Shown: piece after piece, positions 4,659 through 56,940 of the stretch
How the letters are laid out: each line of letters opens with the position of its first letter
Numbering within the stretch: position 1 is the first letter of the stretch
Origin: Diphasiastrum complanatum
Lineage: Eukaryota; Streptophyta; Lycopodiopsida; Lycopodiales; Lycopodiaceae
NCBI GenBank assembly: GCA_029204225.1
Contig: CM055093.1
Location: forward strand, 1,423,877-1,487,876
Reading direction: 5' to 3'
Length of the DNA stretch: 64,000 bases
Notes under the pieces: model-generated
Seen by the model: only the letters and a program-made list of their open reading frames with translations
What the model was told of the DNA's origin: nothing
The model's database searches: none
Translations under genes and position numbers: made by a program

Positions 4659-4665
4659 CCCAGAG

Positions 4666-4683
4666 ATGAAAACTGTGTCCTAA
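4666..4683 (+). promoter_or_regulatory. Upstream mini-ORF before the bHLH start codon
   Basis: An ATG at 4666 opens a five-codon frame (MKTVS) ending TAA at 4683, 17 bases before the main ATG at 4701 and in another frame. If the leader is spliced at 4658 as predicted, this would be the first or a late ATG in the mature leader and could lower translation of the main frame. Confidence 0.4.
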
Positions 4684-4700
4684 AAGTCTTTTTTCTCATA

Positions 4701-24479: not shown

Positions 24480-24640
24480 GTCGGTTGTAACAATTTTAGT
24501 TCGTTTTTGCAAAGTGACAGTTTTAGTTCATTTATGCAAAGTGACTGTTTACGGCCAATTTTCACCACTTATCAGCAATCAATTTCTGAGAAGGAACTGG
24601 ATGAATGCCAACGGACTGGCAATCGCATTTGACGACCTAA
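24480..24640 (+). repeat. Direct repeat shared with 28505-28640
   Basis: About 140 bases, from GACAGTTTTAGTTCATTTATGCA through GAATGCCAACGGAC, recur at 28505-28640 at the point where the Copia-4 RNase H frame breaks off. A 30-base sub-unit is itself duplicated here (near 24495 and 24520). The two copies bracket the Copia-4 body. Confidence 0.65.
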
Positions 24641-25152
24641 TTACTTAGTATAATTGTAGCTTTTCATGACTAATTATTTGTCTGATAACTCAATGCATTA
24701 TTGTTTGGCTACGTAATCATTGTAGTACTGATGATTTCAAAGTTACTATAAGATCGAACGTGATTTCTATCACTATTGTTTTGTTCGAAATTGATAGGCG
24801 TAGTCATGCATGAAGAAAGAGGAAGATAGTCTATTCCGTTGTGCACGATAAGTTTTCTTTCTTGTCATTTGAATTCTTTTTATTCAGCCTACAAATTTTT
24901 TTTATTTGAATCTTATTTGACCTATCTTTCACATACCTCTTTTCGACATGGTATCAGCATTGATTCTTTTTCAGGGTCTAATACTATTTTGATATCAGAG
25001 CAAAAGCTCTAATACTTAATATCTTTCGTGATATCAAATTGATATCATATTCTTCAGTTTCTTTCATCGTTTCAGCACCATAGAATTGATTTCTTGTTGT
25101 TGACATTACTACATCTTAGCGTCATTGATACAATCAACAGACTAAGTTCCAG

Positions 25153-25980
25153 ATGGATTCTCAAAGTAAAGCTGGTCATTTTGTAGACAAGCTGAATGGA
25201 TCCAATTATCATTTGTGGAAATTTAAGATGAAGACCTTGCTAATCGCCAACGAGTTATGAGATGTTGTTTCAAGTATAGAAGTAAAACCTGAAGATGACA
25301 CATAAGACTCAAAGTGAAAATCGAAGGATGATAAAGCTTTCGCGTTTATTATTCTCAATATATCAGATACATAGATTGGACACATAGCTGAAGCTAAAAC
25401 TTCAAAAGACATTTGGGACATCCTGAACTCACATCTACGGAGGAAATTCTTCACATTCAAGATGTCTAATGGTGATTCTCTTCAGAGTCACATTAACTAG
25501 TTTAAGAATCTCTTGCAATAGATGGCCGCTGTCGGATCAATCATAGACAATCAAGATGCAATTATGACATTGCTTTCAAGCTTGCCCTCTACATATGAGC
25601 ACTGGGTGATGATCATATCAACACACTCAAATTTAACTCTTACTAGAGTTATCACTATGTTGCTGCAAGAAGACAATAGAAGAAGTCAAGACACTTTGTC
25701 TGCTTCCTCCTCTCAAGCTCTATATGTCAACAAAGGCTCTAAGCGACAGAAGCAGAAAAGCTCCAAGAAGACTACAACGAATCAGAAGCTGACTCAAAGT
25801 CAAGTACAATCATCAAATCCACAATCGAAGTAGAAGATGTTTTGTAGGTATTGCAAGCGCAATAACCATGAAATCAAGGATTGCTGAATTCTCCAAGCAA
25901 AGAATGCAGCCAAACAGCCTGATCAACAAGCAAACACAGTTTTATCATCTCCCCGGGTTGAACTGGACGAAGGCACATTC
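25153..25980 (+). pseudogene. Copia-4 gag
   Basis: Starts MDSQSKAGHFVDKLNGSNYHLWKFKM in the reading (UBN2-type gag) and includes LLSSLPSTYEHWV and a degraded zinc knuckle, CRYCKRNNHEIKDC, near 25850-25890, which keeps C-x2-C-x4-H-x4-C. Stops occur at Trp- or Gln-type positions, for example NEL(stop)DVV. It would form the virus-like particle shell. Confidence 0.8.
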
Positions 25981-26004
25981 ATAGTCAAAGACCAAAGCAC
26001 ATTT

Positions 26005-27198
26005 TTGGATGATTCATGGTTTCTTGATTCTAGAGCAACTCAAAACATGACCAATCAACATGAGATTTTCAACTCCTACACGTCTTACAACACGAAGAAA
26101 TTTGTTCATCTTGGTGACAATAGTACTCACACTATTGAAGGTGAAGGTACTGTAAGATTGCGATTCCAGCATGATCAATTCAAACTACTATCAAAGGTCT
26201 TATATATTCCTAAACTCTCCACAAATATGTTATGAGTAAGTAGAATTACAAATTTAGGTCATAAGGTAGAATTCGAATCTGATCAATGCAAAATTATCGA
26301 TAGGAGTAATAAGATCCTTGCACTTAGCAAGAGATATGGTTACTTATATAGATTGGCACATTGTTATTCTGAGTCTAGTCAAGCCTTGAAAACCTCTATT
26401 CTAGTCAATAAAGCATTACTATGGCATCATTGCTTGGGACACTTGAATTATGCATCTATTTTGAACATGTCCAGACAATCCGTTCTTGATCTCGACTATC
26501 CTTTTGGTAAGGTCGATCTCCCTGTCTGTCATAGTTGCATCTTTGGAAAGCAAGATAGGATTCCTTTTAGATCAAACCATAGGCATGCAGCAAAAGGTCT
26601 GTTAGATATTGTTCATACAGATATATGTGGAAAAACACCATTCGAAGTTTGGACAGGTACCAAACCTTCTTTATCAAACCTACGAGTTTTTGGATGTACT
26701 ACTTTTGCACAAATACCTCGTGATCTCAAGAAGAAGATCAACTTTCAGAGTATCAAATGTATTTTCATCAGCTACACTACTTCAAATCAAGCCTACAAGT
26801 TGTTTGATCCCATTGAGTCAAAAATATTCACTAGCCGGGATGTCATCTTCATCAAAGATCAGTTGATAGACCTCAAAGGAAAAGACAGTTCCCATGTAGC
26901 CGACTTGTCAAATTCTCTTGACATATTAAACTTTTCAGTTCCTCAGTCGACTATTCTCATTGAAGGTCCAAGATCTTCTACTTTTGATGAACAACAAATC
27001 AACGATGAATTAGAAGATGATGATGTTGCAGTACAACAACTACAGTATGATGTAAATGATCAAATTCCTCTATTACCCAGAAGATCTTCAAGAGCAAGCA
27101 AACCACCTAACCAGTATATCGACGAGTCTACAGCCTACCTTGTTCATGAACCGACGTCTGTCCAAGAGGAACTCAGTCAGCCTGATTCAGATCTCTGA
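26005..27198 (+). pseudogene. Copia-4 protease and integrase with deleted core
   Basis: Protease reads WFLDSRATQNM, so the DSGAT box has Arg for Gly. GAG-pre-integrase follows (LLWHHCLGHLNYAS, CHSCIFGKQDRIPF). At about 26632 the frame goes directly from LLDIVHTDICG to KTPFEVWTGTKPS. Roughly 130 residues of integrase, from just after the first catalytic Asp through the Asp and Glu, are missing without loss of frame. The C-terminal region (LRVFGC, KCIFISY, SRDVIF) is intact. Confidence 0.85.
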
Positions 27199-28495
27199 AA
27201 GAAGCTATGGATAAAGAGTATTCATCTCTTATCAATAACCAGACATAGATAATTGTTGAATTACCTACTAGCAAAAATGTAGTTGATTGCAAATGGATTT
27301 TCAAAGTCAAGTACAATGCAGATGGAAGCATCAACAGGAGAAAGGCACGACTTGCCACCAGAAGATTTTCTCAGGTACACAACGTCGATTACACTGATAC
27401 CTTTAGTCCAGTAGTCAAGCATTCTTCTTTTCAACTTTTGCTATCATGTGCCACTATAGCAGATTTGGAAATACATCAAATGGATGTACAGACAACATAT
27501 CTCAATGGAGTTATTGAAGAAGACATTTACATGGTGCAAACCGAAGGTTATATTATCGAGGGTAAACACAATCATGTGTCAAAACTCCATAAGACACTTT
27601 ATGGCTTGAAGCAATTTGTTCGAGCATGGTTTCAAGGATCAATACTTTTCTTATCGATCACGGCTACACACCTAGCTCTTTAGATTCAAATGTTACTTCA
27701 AAGCAATGCATCCGTCTTTTATTATTATCACTTTATATGTGGATGATACATTGTTTTTCAGCAACAGTACCAATCTAATAAAAGAGGAGAAGACAATACT
27801 ATCTTCCAAATTCGACATAATCGATATGGGTGAAGCTCATTTCTGCCTTGGTATACAAATCCACAGAGACAGAAAATAGAACTTGGTCTACATTACACAA
27901 CAGAGGTACATCTACAACATGTTAGTCAGATATAATCTGATTAATTGAAGTTAGCTCTCTCACCAATGAAACCAGATCTCAAATTGTCAAATAGACCAGT
28001 GTCTCCAAACAATCATGAGAAGCAGTAGATGCGTGAGTATCCTTACATTCTATTATAGAATCTCTTATGTACGCCATGATCTATACCAGGCCAGACATAG
28101 CTTTTGCAGTCAGCTCTCTCAGTTAGTTTATGACTAATCCTGGTGTAACACATTGGAAGGCTCTTATCGGAGTCATGAGATATCTTTGAGCTACTCTGGA
28201 CTTCTGCATTTGTTATGGAATAGTCGGCAATGACAAACTCAATTTACTCAGTGGTGACATAGATGCAAGTTGGGCAGGAGATGTAGACACTCGTAAATCC
28301 ACTTTCGGTTTACATTCTTTCTCAACCATTGAACAGTTGTGAGCAATATTCAATAGCTCTATCTTCCACTGAATCAGAGTATATCATACTCAAGCTACAA
28401 AAGAAACAATTTGGTTGAGGAACTTACTCTCAGATATCAGTCTGAATCGATATGCTCCGACGACATTATTTTGTGATAATGAAAGTGCCATTGTT
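27190..28495 (+). pseudogene. Copia-4 reverse transcriptase and RNase H, heavily broken
   Basis: RT motifs DCKWIFKVKYNADGS, IHQMDVQTTYLNG and KTLYGLKQFVRAW, then YVDDTLFFSN after a frameshift, and FDIIDMGEAHFCLG. RNase H is readable in pieces, to LFCDNESAIVLLAQ at about 28465-28505, where the direct repeat begins. Multiple stops and shifts. The YVDD box itself is preserved. Confidence 0.8.
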
Positions 28496-28831
28496 TTATT
28501 AGCGCAAAGCGATAGTTTTAGTTCATTTATGCAGACATACTGTCTATGGCCAATTTCCATCGCTTATCAGCAATCAATTTCTGAGAAGGATCTGGATGAA
28601 TGCCAACGGACACCAGCCAACTGGCAATCGCATTTGATGACCTATTTGGGACAAAAGATCAGATGGAGAAATAGAATGTAGAATTAAAATGTCTTCCGTG
28701 TGCTTCCGTTATCAAATTGAAAAACAAATGTTGAGCTTATGCTTCCATTATCAAACATGAAAAAAAAATAAAGGTAAATGGGTGCCACTCGATCAAGACT
28801 TGGAAGCTAGTGGACATTCAAAACAAAGAAT

Positions 28832-29148
28832 ATGAAAATTATATACAATGATGTCGTTTTGACATGTGTTGAGGTGGAAGAAGATTGGAGTCTAAACTAC
28901 ATCCGGCGGAAACTAATGCTCCTACAAGATGTACTTTCAGACTTCAAATTCATTTTCAATAATAAACTCATAAGTAATTGTAAACACTCGATCTTTTATG
29001 AATAGTTTCAATCAAAACTTTCTAATACAAACTCTGTGCTAATTCTAACTAACTTTGTATTAGTTTTATGCAGGTACGTAAAAGACATGAGCTCGAGATC
29101 GAATGTAGAGATATTGGCAAAACAATCCAACGTATGGAAGAACATTGA
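28832..29148 (+). CDS. Small element gene, copy A
   Basis: Two exons, 28832-28968 and 29074-29148, end MEEH-stop. The first has VEVEEDWSLNYIRRKL.. and ..FKFIFNNKL, the second VRKRHELEIECRDIG. The copy B counterpart has the same intron at the same position with a good GTAAGT donor; here the donor has become ATAAGT, so splicing is probably lost. The function is unknown. The phrase F-[KR]-F-I-[FI]-N-[NG]-[KR]-L faintly recalls ubiquitin-like folds, a tempting partner for a ULP1 protease, but that is a guess. The 5' end is uncertain; an in-frame stop lies at 28808. Confidence 0.5.
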
Positions 29149-29345: not shown

Positions 29346-31404
29346 CTATTCAATTAATTTTTCTATATTTTCTATATCAGTATTAGAAACTGCTAAGGCA
29401 ACAACTCCTTCTATAATCTCACCCTCCTCTGTTTTGAGAAGGGCCTCAATGCCTTTTAAGACAAGAGGAATATCTACTATAAAATTGCCTTCCTCTATAT
29501 TCGGAAGGACTTTTATTCTTTTTTTATCATATAAAATAAGATCTGCATCCTGAACAACCTGAAAGGATGTTAAGGCATGAGCAGCTTCCTTTTGAGGGCC
29601 CTCGATTGCAGGTGCAACGCTTACACCATACTGGGCATAGGTTCTGAGCGACTCTTACGAAAATCTATATACATCATCAGGAGTATACAGCTCAAGAGTG
29701 AGTTGTCATCACAAAACATGAGAATCAGCAATGAAATGAACTACAAATGAATAGAATATTACCTTTGCAATATCTACATCCATTTGTAAATTATACCATT
29801 CAAAAAATAGCTTCGTATTGTACAGGACGAACCATGCACAACTAAAAGCGTCTTGTTGCTGTACACACTGCATATATAGAACAAAAATTAGTAATATAAT
29901 GATAAAAATTTTATTGATGCTATGACGATACATTTGAATTAAAAAAGAAATACATGCATATCAGAGATAAATTGAATATACCTTGAGAGATTTAATGGTT
30001 ATCTCTCCAATTGAAATTGCCGTTGTTGGTATTTCCCGAACGACATCATGAAGTAGAGAATCAAATTCTCTATGTGTATTTGTAGCTGAGTTTAATTTTA
30101 CACATAGAAAATTTGATACTCTCTTCTTATTTATTTTTACAAAAAGAATGTTCAGGCTCCAATGCCGACTGCAAGAACCAAAATACAAATATTGATAAAT
30201 TCATATTTATAAAAAAATTCCGTTCTTATTAAAGCAATAAAACATGCAACAATCCAGATTAAAGCAACAAAAACAAAAGAGAAATCCTTACTTATTTTCA
30301 TATGGAATCAAATAAAATTTTGCCATAGGAATGCACTCGATGAAATAGACAGCCTTTTTAAAATTGGCTTCTTTCGCTTTACTGCTCCCATGAAAAATGG
30401 ACTAACTACAAAAACTGTACCATGGGAATCGAAACTAATACTATTCTGCAAAAAAGAAACTTCGGCCTCTACTATTGCATCTGAAATTTCTGAGGTCTTA
30501 TCTTTTAGCTTGGCCCGGGACCTAATCTAGAGCTTCTACATGTATTTGAAAGAAAAAAATCAAAAAAGTTGTCGAGAAGATCAATTTTGTTAGCTAGGTA
30601 GGCCTCGTATTGATTATAATGGTCAGAATAAAAAAAAACCTGGGCTGGCTTGTATGGAATTCTCACAAAAAGATTATGTACAAAAACAGAAGTGGAAACA
30701 ATATTTACAGATTTTTCTGTTATTTTGTCTAGATCCTTTTGGGTAATTAACACTTTTGCTAATGAAACCTGCTGAGGAGCTAGACGATTAACAGGAGGAG
30801 GAATGGGTGAAGATTCTCGATATGAGTCAGATTCTCCAACATCTGACTCAGAGCTCAGGAAGACACGAGGTCTCTTGGCTGTAATACGTCTAGGAGGAAG
30901 AGAATCAGCTGGCCTTCGAGATCCAATCTTCTTGGGGACATGCTGCTTTCTCTTCCTCCTAGAGGTAGTAGGCACATTGGCTCTATCCAGAGGTAGGTCT
31001 CTGGAGGTGCTAGCATTATCAACATGCAGACCAGAATATCTGTCCCGAAGCCTTTTGAGAATGACAAAATACTTTGGCATGATGGTGACACGCTTACCAT
31101 GCACTGCCAAAAGACAAGTATCCTCAAAAAACTAAGACAAAAAATCTTCTGCAGCACCCTATAAGGCTTGCATGGCTGTCACTGCAAAACGAACATTTAG
31201 CCCAAGTGACAGAGTGACATTTCGAACAGATCGGCCGAAAGGAGCTCTAGGAATCAACAATTCAGTTGATCTCTAAAGTTTTTTGATCTCCCTCAGCCAG
31301 AGCTGCTTCTTGCCATGCCTACGGCCAGTATCAGGGAGAACACGAGAATGGGATGGCTGTACAGTGGTGATGGCACAGGCAGTGGATTTGGTCTTGGCCA
31401 TCAT
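29346..31404 (-). pseudogene. Histone H3-like domain fused to ULP1-like cysteine protease, copy A
   Basis: Frame 31404-30505 is one reading frame of 300 codons with three TAGs (31273-31275, 31159-31161, 31132-31134). Its start is histone H3-like, described separately. A basic Ser/Pro-rich linker follows (SRRKRKQHVPKK.., RRITAKRPRVF), then a region shared with copy B. After a frame change near 30530, exons continue: to LIPYEN at 30292; 30166-29962 with RHWSLNILFVK (catalytic-type His) and FDSLL; 29875-29763 with QQQDAFSCAWFVLYN (oxyanion Gln and nucleophile Cys as in C48 peptidases); and a last exon to 29346. ULP1-type enzymes remove ubiquitin-like modifiers. The last exon keeps a stop where copy B has Gln. 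Broken as it stands. Confidence 0.75.
31033..31404 (-). pseudogene. Histone H3-like histone-fold domain
   Basis: It reads MAKTKSTAC at the N-terminus (H3: ARTKQTARK), a tail about 13 residues shorter than H3, then LREIKKL, STELLIPRAPF, SVRNV, VRF, FFEDTCLLAVHGKRV and TIMPK, collinear with H3 from about residue 48 to 122 without gaps. Loop 1 has canonical H3 length, lacking the insertion common in CENP-A/CENH3. The three TAG codons align with H3 Gln55, Gln93 and Gly102. Identity is moderate and the tail is very different, with few of the modifiable Lys. The downstream frame continues without a stop into the linker of the protease gene. Known function of the family: nucleosome core. Its role here is unknown. 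Confidence 0.85.
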
Positions 31405-32213
31405 TCTCAAAAGACAAAAGTTAACCAAAAGAAGTTTGAACAAAACAAAAGTGGACGAAAACAAAAAAATTTGCGATGAAAAGGCGCTTGAGATTGATAG
31501 AACTGAATATCGGTTTCGAGCGCAAGATCTAGACAGATTATTTGAATAAAAGAGATGCGCACACGAAAGCGATATTGCACAACCAGCGGTATCAGACTCA
31601 AGCACATTGTGAGAGGGCGGAAGCTTGAACGGTGAAAGTGCGCGCTTGAGAGCGATATCGAGAGCTAAAACCGAAAATTTTGTGAAAAAAAATGAAAATT
31701 CCGAGAACTTATATATATGAAATTTTTACACATGTGAAAAGATGGCGAAGACATGTGTCGTTAGATTATTAATCCACGTGAAATGTCCATACTGACAATG
31801 ATGACCCAATTATGAGACCACGTGGGCTGAGACATGTGCACAAATCCGATATCGACGCGTGTCATTCTCGCACATGACAGATGTCAGATCAATCATTCTA
31901 GGTACGACACATTTATTGGATTTTCATGCAAATTTACGATTGCTTTTCCGGATATCGATTTCAAGCGCGCCGCTTGCTCTCATTACCTTTCATTGACTAT
32001 TATGTGCCTAGATCCGATACTACATCATCCGGTATCGCATTCAAGCGTGCTTTGCATCTCTTTTCTTTTTTGCTCGGTGTTCTTGCACTCAGATCCGATA
32101 CTCCAACTTCAAATATTTCTCTCGAGCACACGTTGCCTTGACGTGCTTGTCTGACTTGCGGTTTGCGCCTGAGAGCAATATTTGAAACTTTAGTTCTGTT
32201 ATTTTTGTTTAAA
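31405..32213. promoter_or_regulatory. Divergent promoter of element copy A with iterated motifs
   Basis: About 800 bases between the H3-ULP1 gene (-) and the plus-strand gene. GATATCG or near copies, each with a nearby CTTGAGCGC/GCGC half, occur near 31505-31529, 31560-31580, 31637-31666, 31846-31862, 31949-31976, 32011-32050 and 32093. The spacing is irregular and both orientations occur. Copy B has the same combination. Likely binding sites for an element protein (inference). Confidence 0.5.
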
Positions 32214-33710
32214 ATGTCTAGTTTTGAATCCAGTTTGCTTTCTTTTTTTAATGAATTTGGTATTATTGAAATCTCTTTTTTCTCCTTTTCTTTTTACTCT
32301 ACCTTCTATAACTGAGGGCCCTGGTGTCGAGGCATTCTCTGAGATATATCTCAGATTAAGTCCCTGCTCAGTACTCCGCTATTCAGATCTCAGAATAAGA
32401 ACATGATTAATTATCAGGACCTGGTGGCACTCGACAAGCATATCTATAAAACTAATCTTGACAGAATGTTTACCAAGTTAAATAATGATTTCAAGTATGT
32501 AAATGAGTACCCAATTCACAATAAAAAAATGTAGATTTGTTGATTTTCAGTCTGCTTTTATTTTTTTTCCTTTTGTTAAATATTTCTGACGATTCAGAGA
32601 CTGTGCCCTCCACTTTTGAAGCAGCTTCTTCTAGTGGTACAAAGTCTGAAAAGTCAAAGATTGTAGATATAGATACTTTTTTTATTTACAAGTGTTAATT
32701 TAGATAATTGTTCTAATTTTGATCCTGCTCAAAATAGGGCTACTTTTATAGGCCCTAGAACACCCACTACCCTTTCTCCTTCTAATAAATCTTTGCTAAC
32801 TTTGCCTACTTATAATATAGATAATAATTCTTTTTTGACAATATCGGATATATCGGATCTTTTTTACTTCACTGAAGCTGAGACTCTTTGCATTTTGATC
32901 AAAGAGCTTGATGAATTTTTGGATATAATTGATTTTGATGCTGATGATCTTCTCCTTGGTGTTGACGATGTACATAATGATAAGTTTTATTCAGGAAAAG
33001 ATTGCTTGAAAATGGTTGTGGAGGAAATGCCCAACAAAGAAGATGATCTACCTTCTAAGGAGGAGTTTCTTAGAATCCAAAGTCAACTTGGTTTTCCACA
33101 GCCAACTATCTATTCACCAACAATATTGACATCGAAAGGTGGAATAATATTGATGGAGAGACAGTCAGAGAAGACAAAGCCGAATGCATAAGTTTTTGTC
33201 TCTTATCAAGTACTAGTAGATTTGTTATGTCAGATTATATACTGGAGCTTACTTTGTCTTTTATCATTTCAGGAAACAATTTTCCTTAATGATTTTGCAA
33301 TTCGTCGAGGAGGGCAGAGATCTTCTGCTGGAGAATTTTCAAGAGATCATGCATTGGGGCACTATCTAAAGTCCTTTAAGAATAATGAGATAAGTGTTGC
33401 CCATTCAAAGTCTCATCAACATGGTGAAACTATGATCATGGCAATCAAGGCACTGTCTCATTTTCTTGGAGAATATAATTTCAATAAGGTGCATAAAATA
33501 ATTTTTGTAAAGAAAACTATTGCAATTAAAATTTTAGGATATGGACCAATGAATTCCATGTTCAGATTGTCTCATTTTGCAGTGTATGCTGTTGATGTTG
33601 ATCTGAGTAAGCATGAAAACTATGAGCTATTGGATCCATACGAAAGAAGAAAATTGTTGCATGATTCTAAGTTGCAACTTTCATTGAAAAAAATATCGGA
33701 AGCAGATTAG
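32214..33710 (+). pseudogene. Element plus-strand gene of unknown function, copy A
   Basis: It starts MSSFESSLLSFFNEFGIIE, matching copy B's SAILIEFGITDN. The middle is interrupted, with open blocks at 32793-33191 and 33222-33710. A splice acceptor (TCATTTCAG at 33263-33271) leads into the last exon, which has GHYLKSF, NEISVAHSKSH, GETMIMAIKALSHFLG, KIIFVKKT and LLDPYERRKLLHD, each with a counterpart in copy B. The central part is acidic (EDEVL.., DFDADDL). No known domain is recognised. The stop codon overlaps the convergent transposase end by a few bases. Confidence 0.55.
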
Positions 33711-36537
33711 ATACTGCTGAATTGTACTTTATAAATATTTTTATTTAATATACAAAATTTTATTGTGTGTCTATAGCCTACTGGCTTGTATAAATTTGCA
33801 TGCTTTTTGAACTTTTTTATAATCCGTCGATTTTGTATTATGACGAATTTGGATTCTTCTATAAAACCATTGGAAAAGTTGCAATATATAGCTGTTTTAT
33901 ATGCTAGTCCCGCCATGTTGTGTACTTTTATGAAATGCCGCTCTTGCTTGCCAATGAGATTTTTCCATTTCTTGCGATGACCATATGCTAAGACTTCCAC
34001 TATTTCTTGCAAAGAATGTCGAATGATGTCGTAATATGTGCTGCATGTCATAAAAACATAATCTAAATCAGTATTAAGAGTATCTAATTTATTTGCACAT
34101 ATTTGTCTATTGTAGTGTAAAATGAAAATCTTACCATATAATGTGTTATATGATCAATACCCCATGCACTTTGAACTGCATCCACAAATTCATTGGTTGT
34201 TTTCTGTATCATTTGAACATCAGTGAAAATTTATCTTTTCTCAAGTATTTCACCATGTTGTCTAACTTTTTCCAAACTTCTATTTTGTGTATACGAGTAG
34301 AACCTTCTTCTTCGAAATCTTGAGTTGCTGCAATAATTTCTTTCCAAACCGTGTATTGAACCTAAGATTGTTTGCCAGAACAATTCGATAAAAATCTTCG
34401 AGCTTTAGATCCTCCAATGCTCGGCTTGCATGGAATATTTCTTGTTTTACCTGATAGCTTGTCATCTTTTTTTATTTTAACGTGGCGTTTATGTAAGCCT
34501 GCTTTGGACAACACATCCTCTAATATGGAAATAGCTTTCTTCACAGAGGCCTCTGGCTCGAAATTCTATGCAAACAACATGTGAAGATATATTATTTTTT
34601 CGATAATACGCACCTCCGCATGCAATGTACAAATATGAACAATTTGTAGAAGAATCGGTAGTACAGATTTCCAATTACGATCTCTTGATATTCTTGTACT
34701 CCTTGTCATGTCTTTTGATGTTTTCATGCAGTACAAACAAGGGTGTTTAGAGTTACGCCATGAGATACATTGAACATACATTTTAATATATTCAGATCTC
34801 CTGCTAAATGCCATTCAATGTTGAAAGTGCCAATTTCAGCAATATTGAGTGGAACGCCCTCCACGTGATTTTTTATGGTGGCAGGATATGATGTTCTACT
34901 AAAATATCCATGAGAGAATGTTATGGTCTTCTTTCAGCACCTATAAGAGAATACAAAAACGTGATTAGCCTCATAATATTAACACAGAGAAGATTTTAGA
35001 CATGAAATCCATATTCAAATGATTATCTCTATTAATTATGCGAAGGAACTGCTAAAACTGAAATGCTGCCAACCACCAGATATCATTTTCTGATTGAACA
35101 CTGAAATTGAGGCCTTCTGAGTCTTCTGAATTTGAAAGTACTCCATTCATGATTGTGAGACTGACTCTTTCCATTTTTTGTCCCTTTATAATTTCAGACT
35201 CATCTAACTTGAGAACAACTATCAACTTGTTATTGACATTATCATTTGTAATACCATAAAATTTATGATGAATGTTAATAACTGATTAATGTCAATAAAT
35301 AAATTGTTGGAATTGTTATATGCTAGACTTTCTCCTTTCGAGCAATACACTTCATTGATATGAGATGGATTACCAACTATTGTCTGCATACCATGGTTTA
35401 ACATGTTTTTTTTTTTTTTTTAAAGATGAAATGGTCGTGGGATTGGAAACTTTTTAATATTTATCTGTGCAAATGCCTCCTTTATCATCTTAAACATTGT
35501 TGCATATATGCTTCCCTACTGATGCTAGAAAAGTCACATGCCCCCTGAAGCAATGTAGTGTCTAATATTTTTCCAACTTCATCCATAATGCTATCAGTAA
35601 TTGAAGCCTTAATCTTTTTCATTTTGTTATTATTTAACATTGATTTCATAGACTTAGAAGTCAAGATAGAGCCTAGTGAGTTTTCAATTGAAATCTCATC
35701 GGCCAAATGGTCTTCAACAACCAATGCCGATCTGCATTGCAAATAAAATGTTCATGAAAATGTCAGTACAAATTAGGACACTCATAGTATTCACAGCAAT
35801 ATGTAATAAGCAAATCAACAGAAAGTTGAAATGAACAAATAACAAAATTAGTGATTATGAATGAATCAAAAAGTTCAAGCAATATTCAATACCAAATAAG
35901 CTATAACTTACTTAAATGTATGGATTCGTCTTTTTCTATGACCTCCTCTGGATGGTAGATCACATATATCCTTGTTTACTAGTCTTTTTCTCTTGTTGCT
36001 TCAGACCTTTCTGTTGAGCACATCCATATCTTTAACAAGAGACAAATATGAGATATGCATGGATTGAAATGCAATTTTTATCTCATCATTACTAATTGTA
36101 TAATGATGCAAAGAATATTTCAACCTTTGGATCTCCTCCTTGAGCATCTCATTTTCATCCAAACAAGTTTTCATTTTTGTAGATTTTTCTTCACACTCCT
36201 TTGATATTTTCCTTGATTCCTCTTCCAAATAATGTATTCTTTGCATTGAATGTGCATTCCCATAGAGCATCAAATTCTCACAGTAACCCAAAAGGCCATT
36301 TTTACCATGACACATATAGATTATTAACTGACTCATCGAATGAAAATCTGGATGTTGCAATGAACATGGATCAATAAGATACAATGTTCCTGATGACCAT
36401 AAATCTACATGTTTTAGCTTTTCCTCCTTATATCGAACCATATCAGAAGTTGACAATTTGGGTTGCTTTGAATTTCTTGTCTTGAGCGGAGCATATTCTG
36501 GTGATAGATCCACATGAATATGATAAAGCTTTGTCAT
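33707..36537 (-). pseudogene. DDE-like transposase gene, copy A, with N-terminal coiled coil
   Basis: The first block (36537-36001, 178 codons) has a predicted coiled coil near residues 100-150. Following blocks (35742-35485, 35404-35222, about 35200-35090) reach KLDESEIIKGQKMERVS, the likely first catalytic Asp. Then EWHLAGDLNILKCMF (second Asp candidate), HPCLYCMK (C-x2-C), VHICTLHAEVRIIEK, and a C-terminal block YYDIIRHSLQEIVEVLAYG (34051-33707) that copy B lacks. Frameshifts occur near 34910 and 34780, and there are several stops. The Asp, Asp, C-x2-C, LHxxxR order resembles transposases of unnamed eukaryotic DNA transposon groups; the superfamily cannot be named from memory. Confidence 0.6.
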
Positions 36538-36540
36538 CAG

Positions 36541-38030
36541 TACAGTAGTATAATAACAAACAACGCAATGACAATTACAAAGCTGGAGATGGCTCTAACG
36601 ACTCTGCTGGAGATAGAGATGGCGTAGGCTTTTTTCAGAAATGTCACTCCTAGTTCAAATTTTTTAGTGTTCCCAACTATTGAGAGGGAATAATTCAGCA
36701 TTTTAAAAAATTATATTTTAACTGTGGTTAAACACCAGTGAAGTTTGATGTGACTAAACTAAGGTGCATTTATTTACATGGAAAGTAGTGCGAGCAGATG
36801 CGTAAAGAAGTTAGAAAATGATATTATAATTACTTTATAGTTATTTTTCTCTCCCCTACATGGCATTTCATATAGGGCCCTCTTTGGGCCCATATTTTCT
36901 CTAATGATTACACTTAATTGAGACTTTCATTTTAGCTGTTCAGAGATAGCTTAGAGTATGCGGCTTCGATCTGCAACTTATTGATTGTACTCATTCACTT
37001 CTGTTTCGTTTTCATACTGAATCAATACTATCTTTTTTTATTGCGTTCAGGTTCGTCTCAGAATGTATGCGTTTCTGTAGTTCTTCGCGACTAATTATTT
37101 GTTTGATAATTTAAAAGTTAGTTACTATAAGATCGAACGTGATTTCTATCACTATTGTTTTGTTCGAAATTGATAGGCATAGTCATGCATGAAGAAAGAG
37201 GAAGATAGTCTATTCCGCTGCGCACGATAAGTTTTTTTTCTTGTCATTCGAATTCTATTTATTCGAATCTTATTCGACCTATTTTTTACATACCTCTTTC
37301 TGACACGTAGAACTGTAGATGTCGTAAGATATTCTTTGATAAGCTCTGAGCTGCACAAAAGTTTCACATTCTTCCACTCTGGTTGAGGATGCAGGAGTGA
37401 GAGGATATCAGCTGGTTTCTTCTTAAGTAGTTCCTCAAGCTTTCCTGGTAGTTTATAGCCACCCCTTGTCATGACATCTAGATATTTGGCTTCGAAGAGC
37501 ATCGACTGTTCTAAATCAGGTACCGTAAAAACTTTATTATACTAGTGTTTGTGCACCGCCATAGGATTGGGGAGGTTATACACTGTGCGAGGGAGAACGG
37601 TGGAAGTTGATGGAGGATCAAATTTGGGGGGTGAAGAGGAGGTGAGAGGAGGTGAAGAAGTACAAGGAGGAGAACTGGTGCAAGGTGAGATGGTGAGATG
37701 GCACGAGGCGGAGTTGTGAGCTTGAGAGCGGGCATAGTAGGATCAATATGAAAGGAGGCATTGTCTTCGGCATGTGAGACATACTGAAGATCATGGTCGA
37801 AGGTGCGGTCTCCGCCAGTCTGGAGGTCGAAGTGAGAATAAGTTAGCTTTCTAATAAAAAAAAAACTTATGGTAAAGGGTAGTAGGCCGCCCAAATAACC
37901 TTTGGAGTACTTCAAAAACATGATAAACAAAAGTGCATGACATGCATGTTTAATTATGTGGTCATACAGTTGATATTGACTTAGAAGTGATCATTGCAGT
38001 ATAAGTCTCTATCTAACATGAAAAGTGTTT
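36541..38030. other. Intergenic with Copia-4 LTR remnant
   Basis: 37087-37305 matches the Copia-4 5' LTR (24667-24948) and ends CTGACA. On either side I see no supported gene: the 37152-37502 and 37511-37930 minus-strand frames lack any domain, and the first overlaps the LTR. Confidence 0.55.
37087..37305 (+). repeat. Copia-4 family LTR remnant
   Basis: Shares AAGATCGAACGTGATTTC, GTCATGCATGAAGAAAGAGG and the terminal ACATACCTCTTT block with 24667-24948. The 5' part of the LTR is not aligned. Probably the displaced 3' LTR of Copia-4, or a separate copy. Confidence 0.8.
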
Positions 38031-40486: not shown

Positions 40487-41310
40487 TTAAAGAACTTCAT
40501 GTCTTCTAATATTATCTAACAAGTACTCAGAGATAGTAGACTCTCCAATGCTCACCACCCTTGCAAGATGCACACTTGAACGGACAATTTGCATACAATT
40601 TGATGACTCGGCAATTGTCATTGAGGACTCCCTTTGAGGCTGATCGTCAAGATCTTCCTCCTTTTGATGCTCCTCCTCAATGCAAGCAAGATCACACTTT
40701 GCCAAGATCTCTTCTTGAGTGATCTCCTCCTTTGCCAAGCTCATTCTTTCAAAAGCAACACTAGCTTCCAACTTAAACAATCTTCCATGTTTAAATCCCT
40801 TTGCAATGCAAACATCATTCTTCAAGATGAAGCAAACATCATGCTTAAAGTGGACATCAAAACCACTTTCTAAGAGTAGACCAACACTAAGCATATTCTT
40901 GGTGATTGATGGTACATAAAGGACATTTTCTAGATCCATGCATTTTGAGGATTCTATTCCCAAAGAGATGGTGCCAACACCATTTCTCCTACACTCTTCA
41001 TCACTTGCAGTAAAGACAAACTTTTTAGAAGCATTGAAAGAGTGTAAGGTTGAGAAAAAGTCCTTTTCACAAGACATGTGGGAGCTAGCCCCACTGTCGA
41101 TCCACCAATTGTCTCTTGAATTGCTATTGCTTGTTGGTGAGGATGTAGATGTCATCAAGAATACATCTACTTCATCCTCCTCCTCCTCCTTTGCAAGGCT
41201 TCCTTGTTTGTCCTCCTCCACTTGTGCTCTTAGCCTCTTGTAGCATTCAGATGCATAATGCCCCTTCTTTCTACAAAAGAAGCATTTCTGCTTTGACTTG
41301 TCTTTTGAGC
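40487..41310 (-). pseudogene. Copia-3 zinc knuckle and aspartic protease
   Basis: On the minus strand CFFCRKKGHYASEC (CCHC knuckle) is followed by an acidic linker and WWIDSGASSHMSCEKDFF, the intact Copia protease site, then NVLYVPSITKNMLSVG and ILKNDVCIAKGFKHG. After that the reading goes into an acidic tail (EEEHQKEEDLDDQ) rather than integrase. This suggests an internal deletion that left an open frame of 244 codons. A TGA stands just upstream of the knuckle. Confidence 0.85.
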
Positions 41311-41411
41311 TTCATGCATCATCCTCTTCTTTGACCTCCTTTGGATGCTCCTTCTTTCCATTGGTCTTTTTTTTTGCCCTTGAATGAGAAATTGGCTTTC
41401 TCATCACCATC

Positions 41412-42017
41412 CTACAAAGACAAGGAACTCATCCTAGATTTTGCATGGAGCATCCTACACTCTTCAGCCACTAATACACTGTGAAGTTTTTCTATAGTTG
41501 GCAAAGTGTCTTGGGAAAAACTTTGGACCAAATTTGCAAAGTCATCCCCTAGACCATTAAGGACAATTTGTACAAGCTCTCCATCATGAATCTTCTCTCC
41601 AATGGAAGCCAACTCCCTATTTAGAGACTTGATTCTGAGTACATAATCTTGTGCACTCTCCTCACTTCTCCTCATGCTTTGCAAAATTTGATTTCTAAGC
41701 ATAAGAACTCTAGAAGTGTTGCTAGACTCATAGATTGATTTTAAAGACTCCCAAGCCTCTTTAGCACTAGTACATGCTGATACTTCTCTCAACAAATCAT
41801 TGCTCACATTCATCTTCACACAATGAAGTGCAAGCCTAGATCTCTTCTTGTATCTAGCTAACTCTTGTGCACCTAGAGGTTCATCTTCATCTTCAATCAA
41901 GAACTCATAAAGGTCTTGGAGCACCAAGAGTGACTCCATCCTTACCTTCCAAATAGCATAATTTGTAGAATTCAACCTCTCACTAGCTTCTAGAAGGTAT
42001 GCTCTAGTAGATCCCAT
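41412..42017 (-). pseudogene. Copia-3 gag
   Basis: Starts MGSTRAYLLEASERLNSTNY (ATG at 42017) with YAIWKVRMESLLVLQD, the same N-terminal motif as Copia-1 gag, and ILQSMRRSEESAQDYVLRIK further on. It ends in TAG after SSLSL; the next codons continue DGDEKANFSF in the same frame toward the zinc knuckle, so the TAG (CAG-like position) divides one original gag-pol frame. Confidence 0.85.
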
Positions 42018-42041
42018 CTTACTAGTGACTTCTACAAACAA

Positions 42042-42385
42042 GAAATAGATTCGATTGACTTGAAACTCACAAAGGTCTCACACTTGCAGTGTTTCACTCA
42101 AATTTGATTTCTAATCCAAAAAATGGACTTATAATCACAGTTCTATCACTCTCTCACAAAGTTGGAATGAAGATAAGATGAAGTGATAACTACTTTCAAA
42201 CAAATCTTGCCAAGAAATGGATTTGATTGTCTCTAGAATCTCACTAAGGTCTCTCTCTTGTAGTGTTTCACTCAAATTAGACTTCTAATCCAACAAATGG
42301 ACTTATAATCTCAGTTCTAGCACTCCCTCACAAAGTTGGAATGAAGATAAGATGATGTGAAATCTACTTACAATCAAATCTTGTC
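42042..42385. repeat. Tandem duplication in the Copia-3 leader, unit about 175 bp
   Basis: The stretch with GTGTTTCACTCAAATT..CTAATCCAA..AAATGGACTTATAATC..CACAAAGTTGGAATGAAGATAAGATGA is present twice, near 42090-42215 and 42265-42360, with point differences. It is part of the untranslated leader between the missing 5' LTR and gag. Confidence 0.75.
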
Positions 42386-43192: not shown

Positions 43193-44529
43193 CTATATCT
43201 GTTCTGTGCTATCTATATTTTTCTGATCTTTATTTAATATAATAACATCATCCTCAGCACCATCATCAACAATGGGAGGCTGAAGCCTTGCCCTCACGAG
43301 TATGCTTAGGATAATTTCTTGTCTAAACTTGTACACTTGGCTTGGTGTGTATTCATGAAGTGTAAACTGCAAGATAGAACACTCATGTATTAGTAACAGC
43401 TAAAAAAATCAACAGAACAGAAAAACTAATCACGATTCCAAAACCAAGATTAAACAGAATAAATTACCTTCGAAATATCAACATCCTCCTGAAGGTTGAA
43501 CCACTCAAAAAATAACTTTGCATTATATAAAGTGTACCACCCATAGCTGAATGAATCATTTTGTTGGGATGACTGCAAAAAAATTCAGCACATAAGAAAT
43601 CAATTAAGAAACAAAATGAATTAGAATGAAACAAATACATTAGAATACTGATTTCAAAATGTTGTTAAGAAAGACAAAATTTACCTCCAAACTGACGATC
43701 TACCAGTGAATTGAATGGGGAACATCTATTGGAATATATTTACTTAAATATGGCAAATATATATCTACACCCTTATGCGTATTGCTAGCCGAGTTCATCT
43801 TGACACAAAATAATTTAACAGTATTATCTACAGATCTCTTAATAGAGATCAGGTTTAAACTCTAGTGCTCACTGCAAAATAAGATAGAAAGTCCATTAGC
43901 TGCAATTTTGAGAACTATTTCCATTGATAATGCCAATGATAAAGCATTAAACAACAAGAAGCATTTAACATATCTCACTTGGTATGATAAGGCATGAGCA
44001 GGTATTTTGTTGTTGGTGTGAATCCACTAGTCAGGCACTGTGACAAAGTGTCATTATTCTCCTTGAAGGCCTGTAGCAAAAAGTTACTGAGCACCAACAA
44101 TTCATTGGATGAATCTTTTGCAATGTCATATTGCAAGAGTGTAATCCCAGACTCTATCACATGATCACTGATAGAAGCCCGTCTATTTAGATCCAAACAA
44201 TCAATAACTCTATAGTTTATACTGAAGTCAAGTTTCTCTAATCTAAAACAAAATGGAACTCCAATTCTATCTATAACATCGGCTATGTCACTCTCAAAAT
44301 TAAGATAATCATCCGAATCTAAATATGTATAGAAATTTGAAATAGGAGGAGGAGGTGGATGAGCAGTATCAACATGAATAACAAGATTATCCAAAATTGA
44401 TGTAGCTATATTTACAGTCGTATCTAGTGCAACAGTATCTACATTACCAACGAGATTAGGTTGAGAAAAATTTGTGGTATTGGCCCTCCTAACTTTCTTC
44501 AAGGCTCTCTTGGGGGCTGGTTGCTTCAT
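43193..44529 (-). pseudogene. ULP1-like cysteine protease gene, copy B (no H3 domain)
   Basis: Starts MKQPAPKRALKKVRR (ATG 44529), a short basic N-terminus, then 185 open codons to PYHTK at 43975, where a GTGAGA donor ends the exon. The next exon (about 43873-43690) reads EH(stop)SLNLI, where copy A has RHWSLNILF; the Trp codon is now TAG. Then QQNDSFSYGWYTLYN (about 43575-43530): the nucleophile Cys of copy A is Tyr here, so the protease is inactive. The last exon has YTPSQVYKFRQEIILS and ends at 43193. The overall layout equals the C-terminal two thirds of copy A. Confidence 0.7.
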
Positions 44530-44754
44530 TGACCATTGACTACACGTGTGAAAAAAATTTGCTATAAGAGACACGCAATCCAATTAATTTTTTGCTTTAT
44601 TTTTTTCGAATATCACGACATATCGCTCTTGTGCGCGCGCTTGTGTTGCTTGTAATTTCTTGATCTCTACCTGCGCACAAGTTCGATATCCCGGTTCTAT
44701 TTGTCGTACATATCTCTCTTGTGCGCGCACAAGTGTGATATCTATCGTAGTACC
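44530..44754. promoter_or_regulatory. Divergent promoter of element copy B with palindromic motifs
   Basis: 225 bases between two divergent start codons. It holds CGACATATCGCTCTTGTGCGCGCGC (44619-44643 region), CTGCGCACAAGTTCGATATC (44671-44690), and the perfect 16-bp palindrome CTTGTGCGCGCACAAG (44719-44734) flanked by ATATC on both sides. The same GATATCG plus CTTG-GCGC pairing is iterated in copy A. Confidence 0.55.
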
Positions 44755-46263
44755 ATGGCCTCGTCCTCAAGATCTACCCAAGATTCCGGCCTAAGTGCAA
44801 TTCTTATTGAATTTGGGATTACTGACAACCTAGACTACTTCCACAACCTATTTTGACCATATTTACATGTTTTCAAGACTGCACAACCCAATACTAAAGT
44901 ATTTTATGAACATTATGTTAGATTCAGGGATATACTTAGTATTCATGTTATCTCCATAGGTTCACTCTCCTACATGCATTATACTGATCTTGTCCATTTC
45001 TTCCCACTATCTAGGCAGAGACTAGATAGAATGTCTACTAAATTGTTTGATCTGTTTAAAAGCACTTCAATGTGTCCTTATTGCGACAAAAAGTGTCGAT
45101 TTGCTGAATACCAAACTGGTTTCATACTTTTCTTGTTAGTTCAGATCCCGGATGATGAGGAAGTTTCTGCTGCTGATCCTCATATTGCATCATCCTCAGT
45201 TCAATCATCCTTTAAGGATACTAGTCACTTCCTTATTGACACCCCTGATAAGGATAGTGATTTTCTTGATGTGAATACTGAGTACTTCGGGATTCTTTCA
45301 TTGGCCAGAATATTACTGCTGATGAATCAATCCCTATAGATGAATCTAAATGTCTCTTTAATTTGCTAGTATATTTTATAAATGATGATGTATTTACTAC
45401 TACAGCTGATTTGTGTCAGTTTTTTTACTATCGTGAGGATGAGGTGCTATGTTTATTATCCGGCACAATTTTTGAAATCTCCGACTTTGTAGATTTTGAA
45501 ACAGATGACCTTGTTGCTGGAATTGGTTATGATGATGAGGATGGACTTATGACCGGTGAAGAATGCTTGACAAGGGCCTTATCAAATATTGTTGGAGCAT
45601 GGATGAGGCATACCATCTGATGAAGAATTCATGGCATTTCAATCCTAGATGGGCTTCCCTCATCCATCATTAATGCATTTCACAGATGATTCTTCTTCAG
45701 TAGGTGGTCATAATATTGATCATCCTGATCTGATTGCTGTTGATGATGAAAAATGTGTAAGTTTTTAAACTTCCTTATATTAGATTGTTCTTAACTGCTG
45801 AATGTATATTATCTTTAACTTATTTTTTAATTGTAGGATGCTCTCATAATTGATGACTTTGGTGGTTACAGACAACATGCATCCTCATTCCAGAGGGATA
45901 GTGGACTTGGCCACTATCTTAGGCATTTTCTGAAGAATGAGATCTGTATTGCTCATTCATAGCTAAGCCCAGTTGGGGGAGACTCTGATAATGGTAGTTA
46001 AAGCTTTATCATTTTATCTAGGAGGACATAAATTTGTTAAGATGAATAAGATCATTTTCGTCAAAAGATCTTATGTTTTGAACATTCTAGGTTTTACTGA
46101 TGGGAATGTTCCTTTGAGGAGCTCTCATTATTTATTGTACTCTACTTATATTGAGCTTAGTGGAAATAAGGATAATGCACATCTATTAGATGCATACTCT
46201 AGCAAAGAATTTCTTTATGACAATACAGCCATAGAAGCTAACACAAAAGTTGATGATGAATAG
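44755..46263 (+). pseudogene. Element plus-strand gene of unknown function, copy B
   Basis: Starts MASSSRSTQDSGLSAILIE, with a TGA after YFHNLF at a position likely once Trp, then ORF 44974-45339 with MCPYCDKKCRF (a C-x2-C-x3-C cluster). It continues with frame changes through TADLCQFFYYREDEVLCLL (compare copy A SDLFYFTEAETLCIL) and an acidic stretch. An intron ends TTGTAG at about 45837. The last exon has GLGHYLRHFLKNEICIAHS, GETLIMVVKALSFYLGG and KIIFVKRS. Unknown domain; conserved between the copies despite decay. Confidence 0.55.
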
Positions 46264-46281
46264 TGAACACTATGTATTTTG

Positions 46282-47733
46282 TTATAATACAATCAATACA
46301 TTTACATTGAGTATTTCTCCTCTGTCTTGTTTATCTTTTCTTAAAATAGCAATCATACTATCAAGCTTCTTCCATACATCAACTTTTAGTACTCTAGTTT
46401 TGTCGTCTTTCTCGAAGTGTTGAGTGACAACAATAATATCTATCCAGACTGAGTGTTGAATATTAGAAGCCTTACCAATATGATTTGATAGGAATCGACG
46501 TGCTTTTGCTCCTCCTATGCTTGGCTTAGTTGGTATATTTCTAGTCTCTCTTGAAAGATTTTCATCTTTTTGAATTTTGACATGTCCCTTATGAAGTCCT
46601 GATTTTGATAACACTTCTTCTAATCGAGAGATAGCTTCCTTTGCGGATGATGTTGGCTTACTATTCCAAGCAAAAACTATATGAAGATAAATGATCTTTT
46701 CTATTAATCTAACTTCTGCATGAAGAGTGCAAATATGCACATTTTTCAAGGGGATAGGTAGCACAGGCTTCCAATTTGGATTTGCATATTCTCTAGTAAT
46801 TTATGTACTTCTAGTAACATCTTTTGCCATTTTCATGCAGTAAAAACAAGGGTATTTAGATGTAGCATCATGAGAGACATTATACATGCATTTCAATGTT
46901 TTCAAATCACCTGTTAAGTGCCATTCAACATTGAAGTCTCCAACTCCTGGAACATTGAGAAGTCCTCCATCCATATGGTCCTTGATGATCCTAGGATAAG
47001 ATGTCCTTGAGAATATCCATGATAATATATCATGATCCTCCTTCAGCACCTGTCCAAAGAATTAATCAAACTTAGTTTACAAAGAATTAATGCTATTCAA
47101 TGAATGTAATGTAATAATGAGACGAGTTACCTGAAACACTGCCAATCACCATATATCATTTTTAGACTAGACATTGAATCTAAAATTTTCTTGGTCCTCT
47201 GTTTGTGATAGTGCACCATTCATGAGAGTTATACTAACCCTCTCCATCTTTTTCCCTTTTACAATTTCTGACTCATCTAACTTAAGTACTATGATTATTT
47301 TGCCATTCACCTTTTCATAGGTTATATCATAGAATATGATGATGTATCTCAGCAAGTAATTTAGTTCAACAAATAAGTTGTTTGATGAATTATAGAATAT
47401 CGATCTTCCATCAGTTTCATACACCTCCTCAATATGAAATGGAGTTCCAATGATCTTATGCATACCTATGTTTATTGTATCCCTCTCTTTCTTCAAGTGA
47501 TATGTCCTAGGGATTGGGACCTTTCTAATTTGAACTTGCTTAAAAGCTTCTCTAATTAGTTTAAATATTCTTGCATATGCTTCCCTGCTAATACCTGCAA
47601 AATTACAAGCACCTTGAACTATAGTCTTATCTAAAAAAATCTGAATGTCCACCATTAAAGACTCTGTTATTTTACACTTTACATTTGAACACCTATTGTT
47701 CATCATGATACGCTCAGTGGATTTGCCTGTCAA
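46282..47733 (-). pseudogene. DDE-like transposase gene, copy B
   Basis: Reads MTGKSTERIMMNNRC (47733) through GACNFAGISREAYARIFKL, SSNNLFVELNYLLRYI and VLKLDESEIVKGKKMERVS (first Asp) to an intron (about 47131-47056, GTAACT donor, GGACAG acceptor). It continues VLKEDHDILSWIFSRTSYP, EWHLTGDLKTLKCMYNVSH (second Asp), YPCFYCMK, VHICTLHAEVRLIEKIIYLH, GLHKGHVKIQKDENL and VWKKLDSMIA. It ends at 46282, about 200 residues earlier than copy A. Stops are few (TAG/TGA at Trp or Gln positions near 47120-47170 and 46800). Cutting and joining of element ends is the expected role. Confidence 0.65.
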
Positions 47734-47789
47734 TATTGTGAGATGTCTTTGCCTCGAATCCAGGTATGGAGCTTTCTGTAAAATACCAA

Positions 47790-49370
47790 TATGGTATATC
47801 TTTTTACCTTTTTAGGGACAGTAAAAGCAAGTCGAAACACATAATACGATGCGGTCAATTTTCTCATGAGAAATTTAAATGAAAAGAGTACATTGTGCAT
47901 CTTCTAAAAAGTAGTTGTAAAGATAGACGTTTTTATAAGTTGCTTAAAGAACATAAAATGATAGCTATATGTATGCTTCTAATTGGTTCAACATGTAGCT
48001 CAAGCAGGCTTGTATGGCATGGATTTGTGCAAGCTATAAAGTGCTTTGACTCTCTAATCTTTGTATGGGAAGTTTGTGGCTAGTATGGCACGGATCTGCC
48101 CTAGTACCTAGGACAGACTGTATTGCTAATGCTATAATGCTTGGTAGGGAAGATTGAACGTATGTTTTGTATTTGCAATTAAGTTGATAAGGTAGTGATT
48201 TTTGTTTCGTACATGGATAACAACTGATATTTAGCTATGACACCTGTCTTTCTCACGTAAATAACTCATGCGGTTGTGCTTTGTGGGATGGTGGCAGCTA
48301 ATAGTTGAGTATCCTAAAACTTGTTTTGCTTTATGGTACTCTATACTGTAAGACTTTATACAGCTTTGTTTTTACCTGTTATGTTATAAATTAAAGGGTT
48401 CAAAGGGTTTGGTTTAGGGTTTGCTCCCTATCTACCATCAACATTGTGTCCAGTGATAGGCCCAAGTCATCCGTGAGGTAGCAGCCCTCCATAAAAAAAG
48501 AACAGAGTGGCGAGCCCAGCCAATGCCAACCACATGACTGCGCACCTAGCATGCGGCAGACTATTTGACCCAGCAGGTGCAGCTATTCAGACAAATGCTA
48601 ATGAGCTACCAGATTGCATTCGATCAATACCGACACCAAGCCCACTAGGAGTTATCCAGAGCCAAGGCCATATTGAGAGAATGGCAGCAACAAATGGCAC
48701 AACAACCACCAACATCCCAAGTGGTAATTCCACTAACACTTCAACTAGAGGCTGCACTGGCCATGAAGGCCGAGCTCAAGGGCAAGAGGCAGTGGGGCAA
48801 GAGACAGACTAGGGACAAAGCTAGGGGTTAGAGTAGAGCATGACACCATCGACGGAGGTAGCAACAAGCGTCATCCTCCCAAGGGTCTCGCTCCATATCA
48901 GCCTCTAGGGCCTTCAGAAAATCCAAAAACGTGGAGGAGGAAATCAACAAATGTCTAACGCAACATCCCTATGAATCCTCCTGTAGTGGGTGGTAGGTTT
49001 CCTTCACTGCCAAATAAATCAAGGGCAATGAAATCTCGTGTCTCCTTGCGTGTAAGTAGTACATCTTGGAGCACACACTGTTGGCCATCAGGGCGTATGT
49101 GTCTAGCCCGAGGACACTGAGAATAAATTCTCACTACGTCTCCATTCCACGACGCAAAAAAATGGACGTAGTGCAGGACACCTTTGGAGCAGATAATGAT
49201 CAGAACCATGAACTGGTCAAATATCCATTCCGAATATGGCTGAGGCACATATGTAGATGCCAAAAGGGCACTAGGTTAATCCCATATTTTGGATACCCTT
49301 CAGATATTGTAGGATTCGTCTTGCCATTTGCCAATGTGCCATGCCAGGATTGGAAGAGAATTGGCTTAAA
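47790..49370. other. Intergenic with weak coding-like relics
   Basis: At 48430-48830 one plus-strand frame, interrupted by a few stops, reads as a Gln/Arg-rich coiled coil (QMLMSYQIAFDQYRHQ, LREWQQQMAQQ), possibly a gag-like relic. At 48955-49263 a 102-codon minus-strand frame has protein-like composition but no recognised domain. Nothing else is supported. Confidence 0.3.
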
Positions 49371-56350: not shown

Positions 56351-56940
56351 TCTCCCTTAAGCTCAAATGTGATAAGAGTGCAAAACAATAATTTGTAGCA
56401 ACGTTTGGAGTGTCCAAAAGATGTTATGCATGTCCATGCTACCCTGTACTTGACTCACACTCAAGCACACCAACAAACCACCAGGTTTGACTCACAAAGT
56501 ATCATGCAACACAATGCTCATACAAAGAGTCTATCATATTGTTGACCAACTGACTCGTCCCCAATCTGACTTGAACACAAGTGGACCACATGAGCGACAT
56601 GGCTCAAACTGAGGAAATCCCATTGCCACCATGAGACTTGGATCCTCCATCTAGCTAGGCTGACATCCTATCAGACACTTACAAGCACAAACCTGTAAAG
56701 CCGACATAAATGAGCGACTGAGATTCAACCTGAGAAAATCTTACTGCTACCATAAGATTGTACCCTCACCAGATAGACAGCTAGTAGACAATGACAAGTC
56801 AATGAGCATAAAATGATTACTTTGTTTCACACGTAGCAAATGCACAACCACATGCAACTCGGACTCAAATCTAGACTCTCGTGACAAGGTAATATGCAAG
56901 CACACATTCATGCAAACCAACACGAATACGTCAAATACCG

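Follow-up and report, generated by a model that had tools for sequence, protein, structure and literature searches.

Diverged histone H3 genes are already known from DNA transposons of fungi: hAT transposons of Pyrenophora tritici-repentis carry H3L genes (PMC3538342), and a hAT element has captured H3 in Pseudocercospora fijiensis and its relatives (PMC6710886). The Pyrenophora report describes H3L as fitting neither H3 nor CENH3, with ESTs, in an element that has a further ORF (PMC3538342). Among plants, three reports describe KIU and KAONASHI Ulp1 genes and VANC anti-silencing proteins in the VANDAL (MULE) elements of Arabidopsis (PMC13317346, PMC5735166, PMC10398659), the Ulp1-bearing VANC genes (KIU) acting on motifs in noncoding DNA and reducing methylation (PMC13317346). 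Two further reports extend the range of captured or parasite-borne chromatin genes: diverse fungal DNA transposons have captured TET/JBP dioxygenase genes, with escape from silencing as the proposed role (PMC12730594), and giant viruses carry histones and histone fusions, some of the latter to unknown proteins (PMC9145170).

The locus analyzed here, in 64 kb of DNA from a plant (the whole stretch, hereafter the window), resembles the fungal hAT elements in that a DNA transposon bears an H3-like gene beside its transposase, in this case in one element copy, copy A. The published elements have fungal hosts, a hAT transposase and multiple copies with terminal inverted repeats (TIRs), and the Pyrenophora H3 is a separate ORF, whereas our element resides in a plant, has a transposase of another family, joins H3 to an Ulp1-type protein, and has its H3 part in one dead copy. 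Because the fungal genes are published (PMC3538342 and PMC6710886), the original prediction erred in stating that no case of a transposon with its own H3 variant had been described. For a transposon-borne H3, none of the literature matches listed (titles and abstract starts, with few subscription papers covered) had a plant host, an H3–Ulp1 fusion, or a motif-cluster promoter.

Like the KIU/VANC systems, the element has short, repeated noncoding motifs, together with an accessory gene whose domain is apparently Ulp1-like (below the Pfam cut-off here); it differs from them in its H3 domain (no histone is mentioned in PMC13317346). The TET/JBP elements likewise captured a chromatin-type enzyme, although both enzyme and hosts differ. 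Giant-virus histones are also parasite-borne and in some cases fused; the virus-side comparison made here, of the element transposase against IMG/VR contigs, yielded no confirmed relative.

A histone H3-like domain on the minus strand

The H3-like domain occupies the start of gene 3 of copy A, in a single minus-strand frame that runs from 31404 to 30508 (MMAKTKSTAC...LREIKKL-stop-RSTELLIPRAPF...AL-stop-GAAEDFLS-stop-FFEDTCLLAVHGKRVTIMPK) and whose leading 120 residues align collinearly with histone H3, beginning at its initiator methionine, the MAKTKSTAC start being the second ATG, at 31401. Features of this part are as follows:

31045..31404, minus strand: H3-like domain at the N terminus of gene 3, copy A (frame, Pfam, tblastn)
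31273..31275, minus strand: first in-frame TAG stop (tblastn), which counting along the alignment puts at H3 position 55
31159..31161, minus strand: second in-frame TAG stop (tblastn), at H3 position 93
31132..31134, minus strand: third in-frame TAG stop (tblastn)

With stops set to X, the translated frame matches the Pfam Histone family (PF00125) at E=2e-21, a profile comparison that the original prediction had proposed. The top match in a search of the PDB is a histone H3 (3.9e-19), and 175 distinct PDB sequences match at E≤0.001 (60 of the 175 among the matches listed). In a tblastn search of the 64-kb window, residues 1–132 of a canonical plant H3 align to 31401–31045 on the minus strand (39% identity, E=8.5e-20); this value and the Pfam match exclude a chance frame as the source of the likeness. 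The core agrees with plant H3 at 42 of 85 residues and is ungapped in a global alignment, the gaps being confined to a short, divergent N-terminal tail. A minus-strand protein collinear with H3 across the histone fold, its gapless core, its short divergent tail and the lack of a CENH3-type loop-1 insertion had all been claimed for this frame from its letters, and all are borne out, the last by an alignment that shows no insertion and F84 kept.

The same tblastn search found no second significant H3 match in the window. The runner-up (E=0.34; 44718–44605, 38 residues, 29% identity) lies in the promoter of the second element copy, copy B, on the strand of gene 3; it overlaps the motif repeats of that promoter, and we take it to be due to chance.

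Relation to H3 and CENH3

The domain is 48 to 50% identical to three canonical H3s, 43 to 51% identical to four CENH3s, and at most 52% identical to any of 15 references. Alignments lack the loop-1 insertion and have F, not W, at H3 position 84, which together argue against a CENH3 gene. Other residues point the opposite way: LLIP is shared with Arabidopsis CENH3, and W47, L54, and L110 with human CENP-A. In the tree, two long branches join weakly (support 65/35), and we leave the domain unplaced. Judged by its residues, it is neither a plain H3 nor a CENH3.

Several of the residues considered next (R116, H113, D123, K4, K9, and K27) are H3 positions with known roles. R116 and H113 are kept in the alignment and D123 is changed; in the tail, K4 is kept, K9, K14, and K18 are changed, and K23, K27, and K36 fall in gaps, the placement of which is uncertain. 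The predicted structure of the domain is poor (pLDDT 52), with helices in the order of H3: no histone was among the 50 Foldseek matches listed for this model, and its VIA Z to histone chains was 2.3 to 2.6, with unrelated chains reaching 3.3.

Fusion to an Ulp1/C48-like protein

Downstream of the H3-like domain, gene 3 of copy A continues as follows:

30508..31044, minus strand: open extension of the H3 frame, a basic linker (SRRKRKQHVPKK...) (dinucleotide shuffles)
about 30547–30717, minus strand: portion of the extension resembling the N-terminal region of gene 3 in copy B (shuffles)
30291..30526, minus strand: continuation of gene 3 after frame changes (ISDAIVEAEVSFLQ..., then FYLIPYENK) (frames, shuffles)
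29712..30164, minus strand: Ulp1/C48-protease-like exons (HW..., NSATNTH, QQQDAFSCAWFVLYNTKLFFEW) (Pfam, tblastn to copy B)

The H3 frame extends ~180 residues past H3, the basic stretch included, and beyond the last stop 208 residues remain open; none of 5,000 dinucleotide shuffles keeps the linker open, and by eye the linker resembles a nuclear signal. Similarity to gene 3 of copy B is weak for the tail of the extension by itself (25 of 2,000 shuffles reach its score) and stronger when the tail is taken together with the next segment, after the frame change (0 of 2,000). The C48-like exons of the two copies match each other at E=1.7e-16 and 8.9e-9 (tblastn), and Pfam Peptidase_C48 matches gene 3 at E=0.021 (15.1 bits, below the cut-off of 20.7). 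The HW and QQ.D.FS motifs, which we take to be C48-like, can be read in copy A, where the latter appears as QQQDAFSCAWF; copy B has Y in place of C. On these sequence comparisons, gene 3 of copy A very probably encodes an in-frame fusion of a diverged histone H3, a basic linker, and an Ulp1/C48-type protease.

A protein search returned no relative of the H3–Ulp1 fusion: each of its 20 matches has a histone domain, with 25 to 42% of the query covered. A two-row alignment search for relatives of gene 3 confirmed 0 of 7,707 candidates, the H3 columns being filled in one of the two rows, so that the H3 part probably lay outside the search profile. Several H3-fold proteins (P0007, P0011, and P0017–P0020) are 73 to 214 residues longer than the 136 of H3, mostly at the N terminus, and may be viral histones or further fusions of H3.

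Two copies of an element

The genes that flank the H3-like domain recur in the same order at 42.7 to 47.8 kb of the window (tblastn), which upholds the earlier claim of a second element copy. The two copies comprise, in addition to the parts of gene 3 given above:

33900..36594, minus strand: transposase gene, copy A, frames broken (frames, tblastn)
near 35204, 34798, and 33965, minus strand: candidate transposase D, D, and E residues, copy A
32214..33707, plus strand: element gene 2, copy A, start from frames (frames, tblastn); no Pfam family above the cut-off
28811..29002, plus strand: another conserved segment of the element in copy A (matches copy B at E=3.6e-8)
46285..47811, minus strand: transposase gene, copy B; the N-terminal exon of copy A has no match there
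44755..46260, plus strand: element gene 2, copy B, start from frames (frames, tblastn)
43196..44529, minus strand: gene 3, copy B, with Ulp1/C48-like exons and without a significant match to H3
31482..32180, no strand: divergent promoter, copy A, with motif copies (TATCGcTcTcaaGCGCGC), 10 sites at a score of at least 12
44621..44740, no strand: divergent promoter, copy B, containing the 18-bp motif (TATCGcTcTcaaGCGCGC) four times

Copy B is truncated and very divergent: its DNA is 67% identical to that of copy A over the longest alignable stretch, dN between the copies is 0.28 over 482 codons (stop codons excluded), and dS could not be calculated for five of the seven segments or in total. At 42.7 to 47.8 kb, tblastn found no significant match to an H3 remnant, though the Ulp1-type gene is present, and gene 3 of copy B begins about where the H3 part and linker of copy A end; one of the two copies in the window, copy A, thus bears H3. 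Gene 2 is a conserved gene of the element that in both copies is transcribed divergently from the gene for the H3–Ulp1 protein.

The transposase has 101 relatives at E≤0.01, and neither it nor six of these relatives matches a Pfam family above the cut-off. Its predicted core fold resembles that of RAG1/Transib, with no sequence match to these in Pfam (six relatives) or in the PDB, where neither RAG nor Transib is among the seven sequences that match up to E=10. Searches of viral (IMG/VR) and prokaryote contigs with the transposase gave 2, 80, and 74 pattern matches, none of them confirmed as relatives. Nothing clear was found in the way of terminal inverted repeats or other termini; copy A has a Copia insertion on its left, and copy B is truncated. 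Apparently, the element represents an uncatalogued family of DNA transposons.

By eye, Copia-type retrotransposons occupy 13846–16898, 24509–28611, 40487–42077, and 56893–57588 of the window; the one at 24.5 to 28.6 kb is bounded by direct repeats of 89% identity and sits directly left of copy A. We take the gene at 4614–6480 (plus strand), from its motif, to be a plant bHLH-like host gene.

A divergent promoter with a clustered motif

Genes 2 and 3 diverge from a common gap (starts from frames), in which an 18-bp motif (approximately TATCGcTcTcaaGCGCGC) is clustered. At a score of at least 12, there are 10 sites in copy A, 4 in copy B, and 1 elsewhere in the 64 kb (14 of 15 in the promoters), by a matrix whose ten input sites, six in A and four in B, themselves make up 10 of the 14 promoter matches. 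When the matrix is restricted to the six A sites, it still recovers each of the four B sites (scores of 12.5 to 22.4), compared with eight matches at a score of at least 9 elsewhere in the 64 kb (best, 13.7). The reciprocal matrix, based on the B sites (four in all), recovers four of the six in copy A plus three additional places within the copy A gap (up to 18.7), misses the remaining two A sites, and has five matches elsewhere (best, 12.1). Independently of any matrix, the promoters have 33 8-mers in common, against a mean of 14.8 in shuffles (0 of 300 reach the observed number); the signal is weak for common 7-mers (13 of 300) and shows no excess for common 6-mers (52 of 300).

The motif nearest to the ATG of gene 3 lies ~81 bp away in copy A, where this is the ATG of the H3-like domain, and ~92 bp away in copy B; the H3 part therefore starts where the element's own gene starts. 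Such a start at the motif-cluster promoter, along with the in-frame fusion to the Ulp1-type part, leads us to assign the domain to an element gene, in agreement with the original prediction, which had it belong to the mobile element. A separate host H3 gene beside the element is disfavored by the same fused open frame and promoter motifs.

Decay and past function

With three in-frame TAG stops, copy A is unable to make the protein, and these stops, together with the frame changes, mark it as a dead element. Neutral decay to the observed identity gives a mean of 2.3 to 3.5 stops in simulations, so the three observed fit neutral decay and their number does not discriminate. Other measures separate the domain from simulated decay (substitutions only, starting from canonical H3): its HMM family score is 93.3 bits, versus a maximum of 84.2 among 4,000 decays, and of its 40 altered residues, 24 are shared with other reference H3 or CENH3 proteins, where ~6 are expected and none of the 4,000 simulations reaches 24. 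The reference profile for the family consists of 15 sequences. Invariant columns are retained slightly more often than chance would give (44 to 56 of 1,000 simulations per model), the changes are on average not significantly conservative (66 to 304 of 1,000 simulations per model reach the observed mean), and the 85-codon core is free of indels, though ~84 to 91 substitutions would be needed. Overall, the domain has changed in a way that resembles a working H3 variant, and we lean toward the view that its H3 fold was functional for some period.

Alternative explanations

Since the decay test starts from canonical H3, it is unable to reject the decay of an already divergent variant, and the explanation that survives best among the alternatives, though in our estimate somewhat unlikely, builds on this: the lineage would have taken up a transcript or fragment from a host H3 variant that had already diverged, whether CENH3-like or of another kind, and that by luck joined gene 3 in frame without serving any function in the element. 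In fungi, DNA transposons are documented to have transduplicated H3; here, no significant match to H3 exists in copy B, and the H3 part is intronless, as expected of a retrocopy. Such a passenger is harder to reconcile with H3's own ATG at the start site of the element gene, near the promoter motifs, and with a frame that stays open through a 180-residue extension, which is beyond what an accidental insertion needs.

Alternatively, the domain could steer the transposition complex or protein to particular chromatin (e.g., centromeric) rather than counter silencing. Its identity to canonical H3s (48 to 50%) and to CENH3s (43 to 51%), together with some CENH3-like residues, would suit a module that stands between the two. 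Absence of the loop-1 insertion, F at position 84, and a tree that does not place the domain argue against such targeting, as does the fact that the domain is not fused to the transposase, and we regard it as improbable.

Finally, the chance arrival in the element of a retrocopy of ordinary host H3, since decayed, is highly improbable, and an ordinary H3 pseudogene is rejected: its three stops would fit neutral decay, but 0 of 4,000 simulated decays reach the family score or the family-like residue number, the 85-codon core is indel-free despite ~84 to 91 substitutions, and the open frame is fused.

Proposed role and implications

We return to the reading that we prefer, namely, a fusion of diverged H3, linker, and Ulp1 in gene 3 of the element that would act on chromatin against silencing; as a whole, we give it an even prospect. 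In living copies, the H3 part would pair with H4 and enter or dock on nucleosomes, and a tail with the K4 context and without the K9 and K27 sites would be unable to carry plant silencing marks. The fusion could thereby deliver a SUMO-type protease to chromatin, possibly that of the element's own motif-rich promoter, and counter silencing there. A nucleosome-docking protein fused to a SUMO-type protease would most simply be an anti-silencing factor, in parallel with the Ulp1-bearing KIU/VANC proteins of VANDAL elements, whose targets are repeated noncoding motifs (PMC13317346); we regard this use of the fusion as possible, though somewhat less likely than not. The most specific version is unlikely to hold in every part: in it, a lineage of plant DNA transposons whose recombinase core resembles RAG1/Transib would have evolved a dedicated H3 variant, fused to a SUMO-type protease and unmarkable at K9/K27, for anti-silencing on nucleosomes at its own promoter.

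Transposons and their hosts contend over chromatin, and the counter-weapons of plant elements met in the literature listed are anti-silencing proteins, such as VANC, that recognize DNA motifs. If the proposed role is true, the element described here would supply its own nucleosome subunit without K9/K27 sites, joined to a SUMO-type protease, acting on the substrate of silencing itself, which would also suggest why unrelated transposons, in fungi and in this plant, have captured H3.
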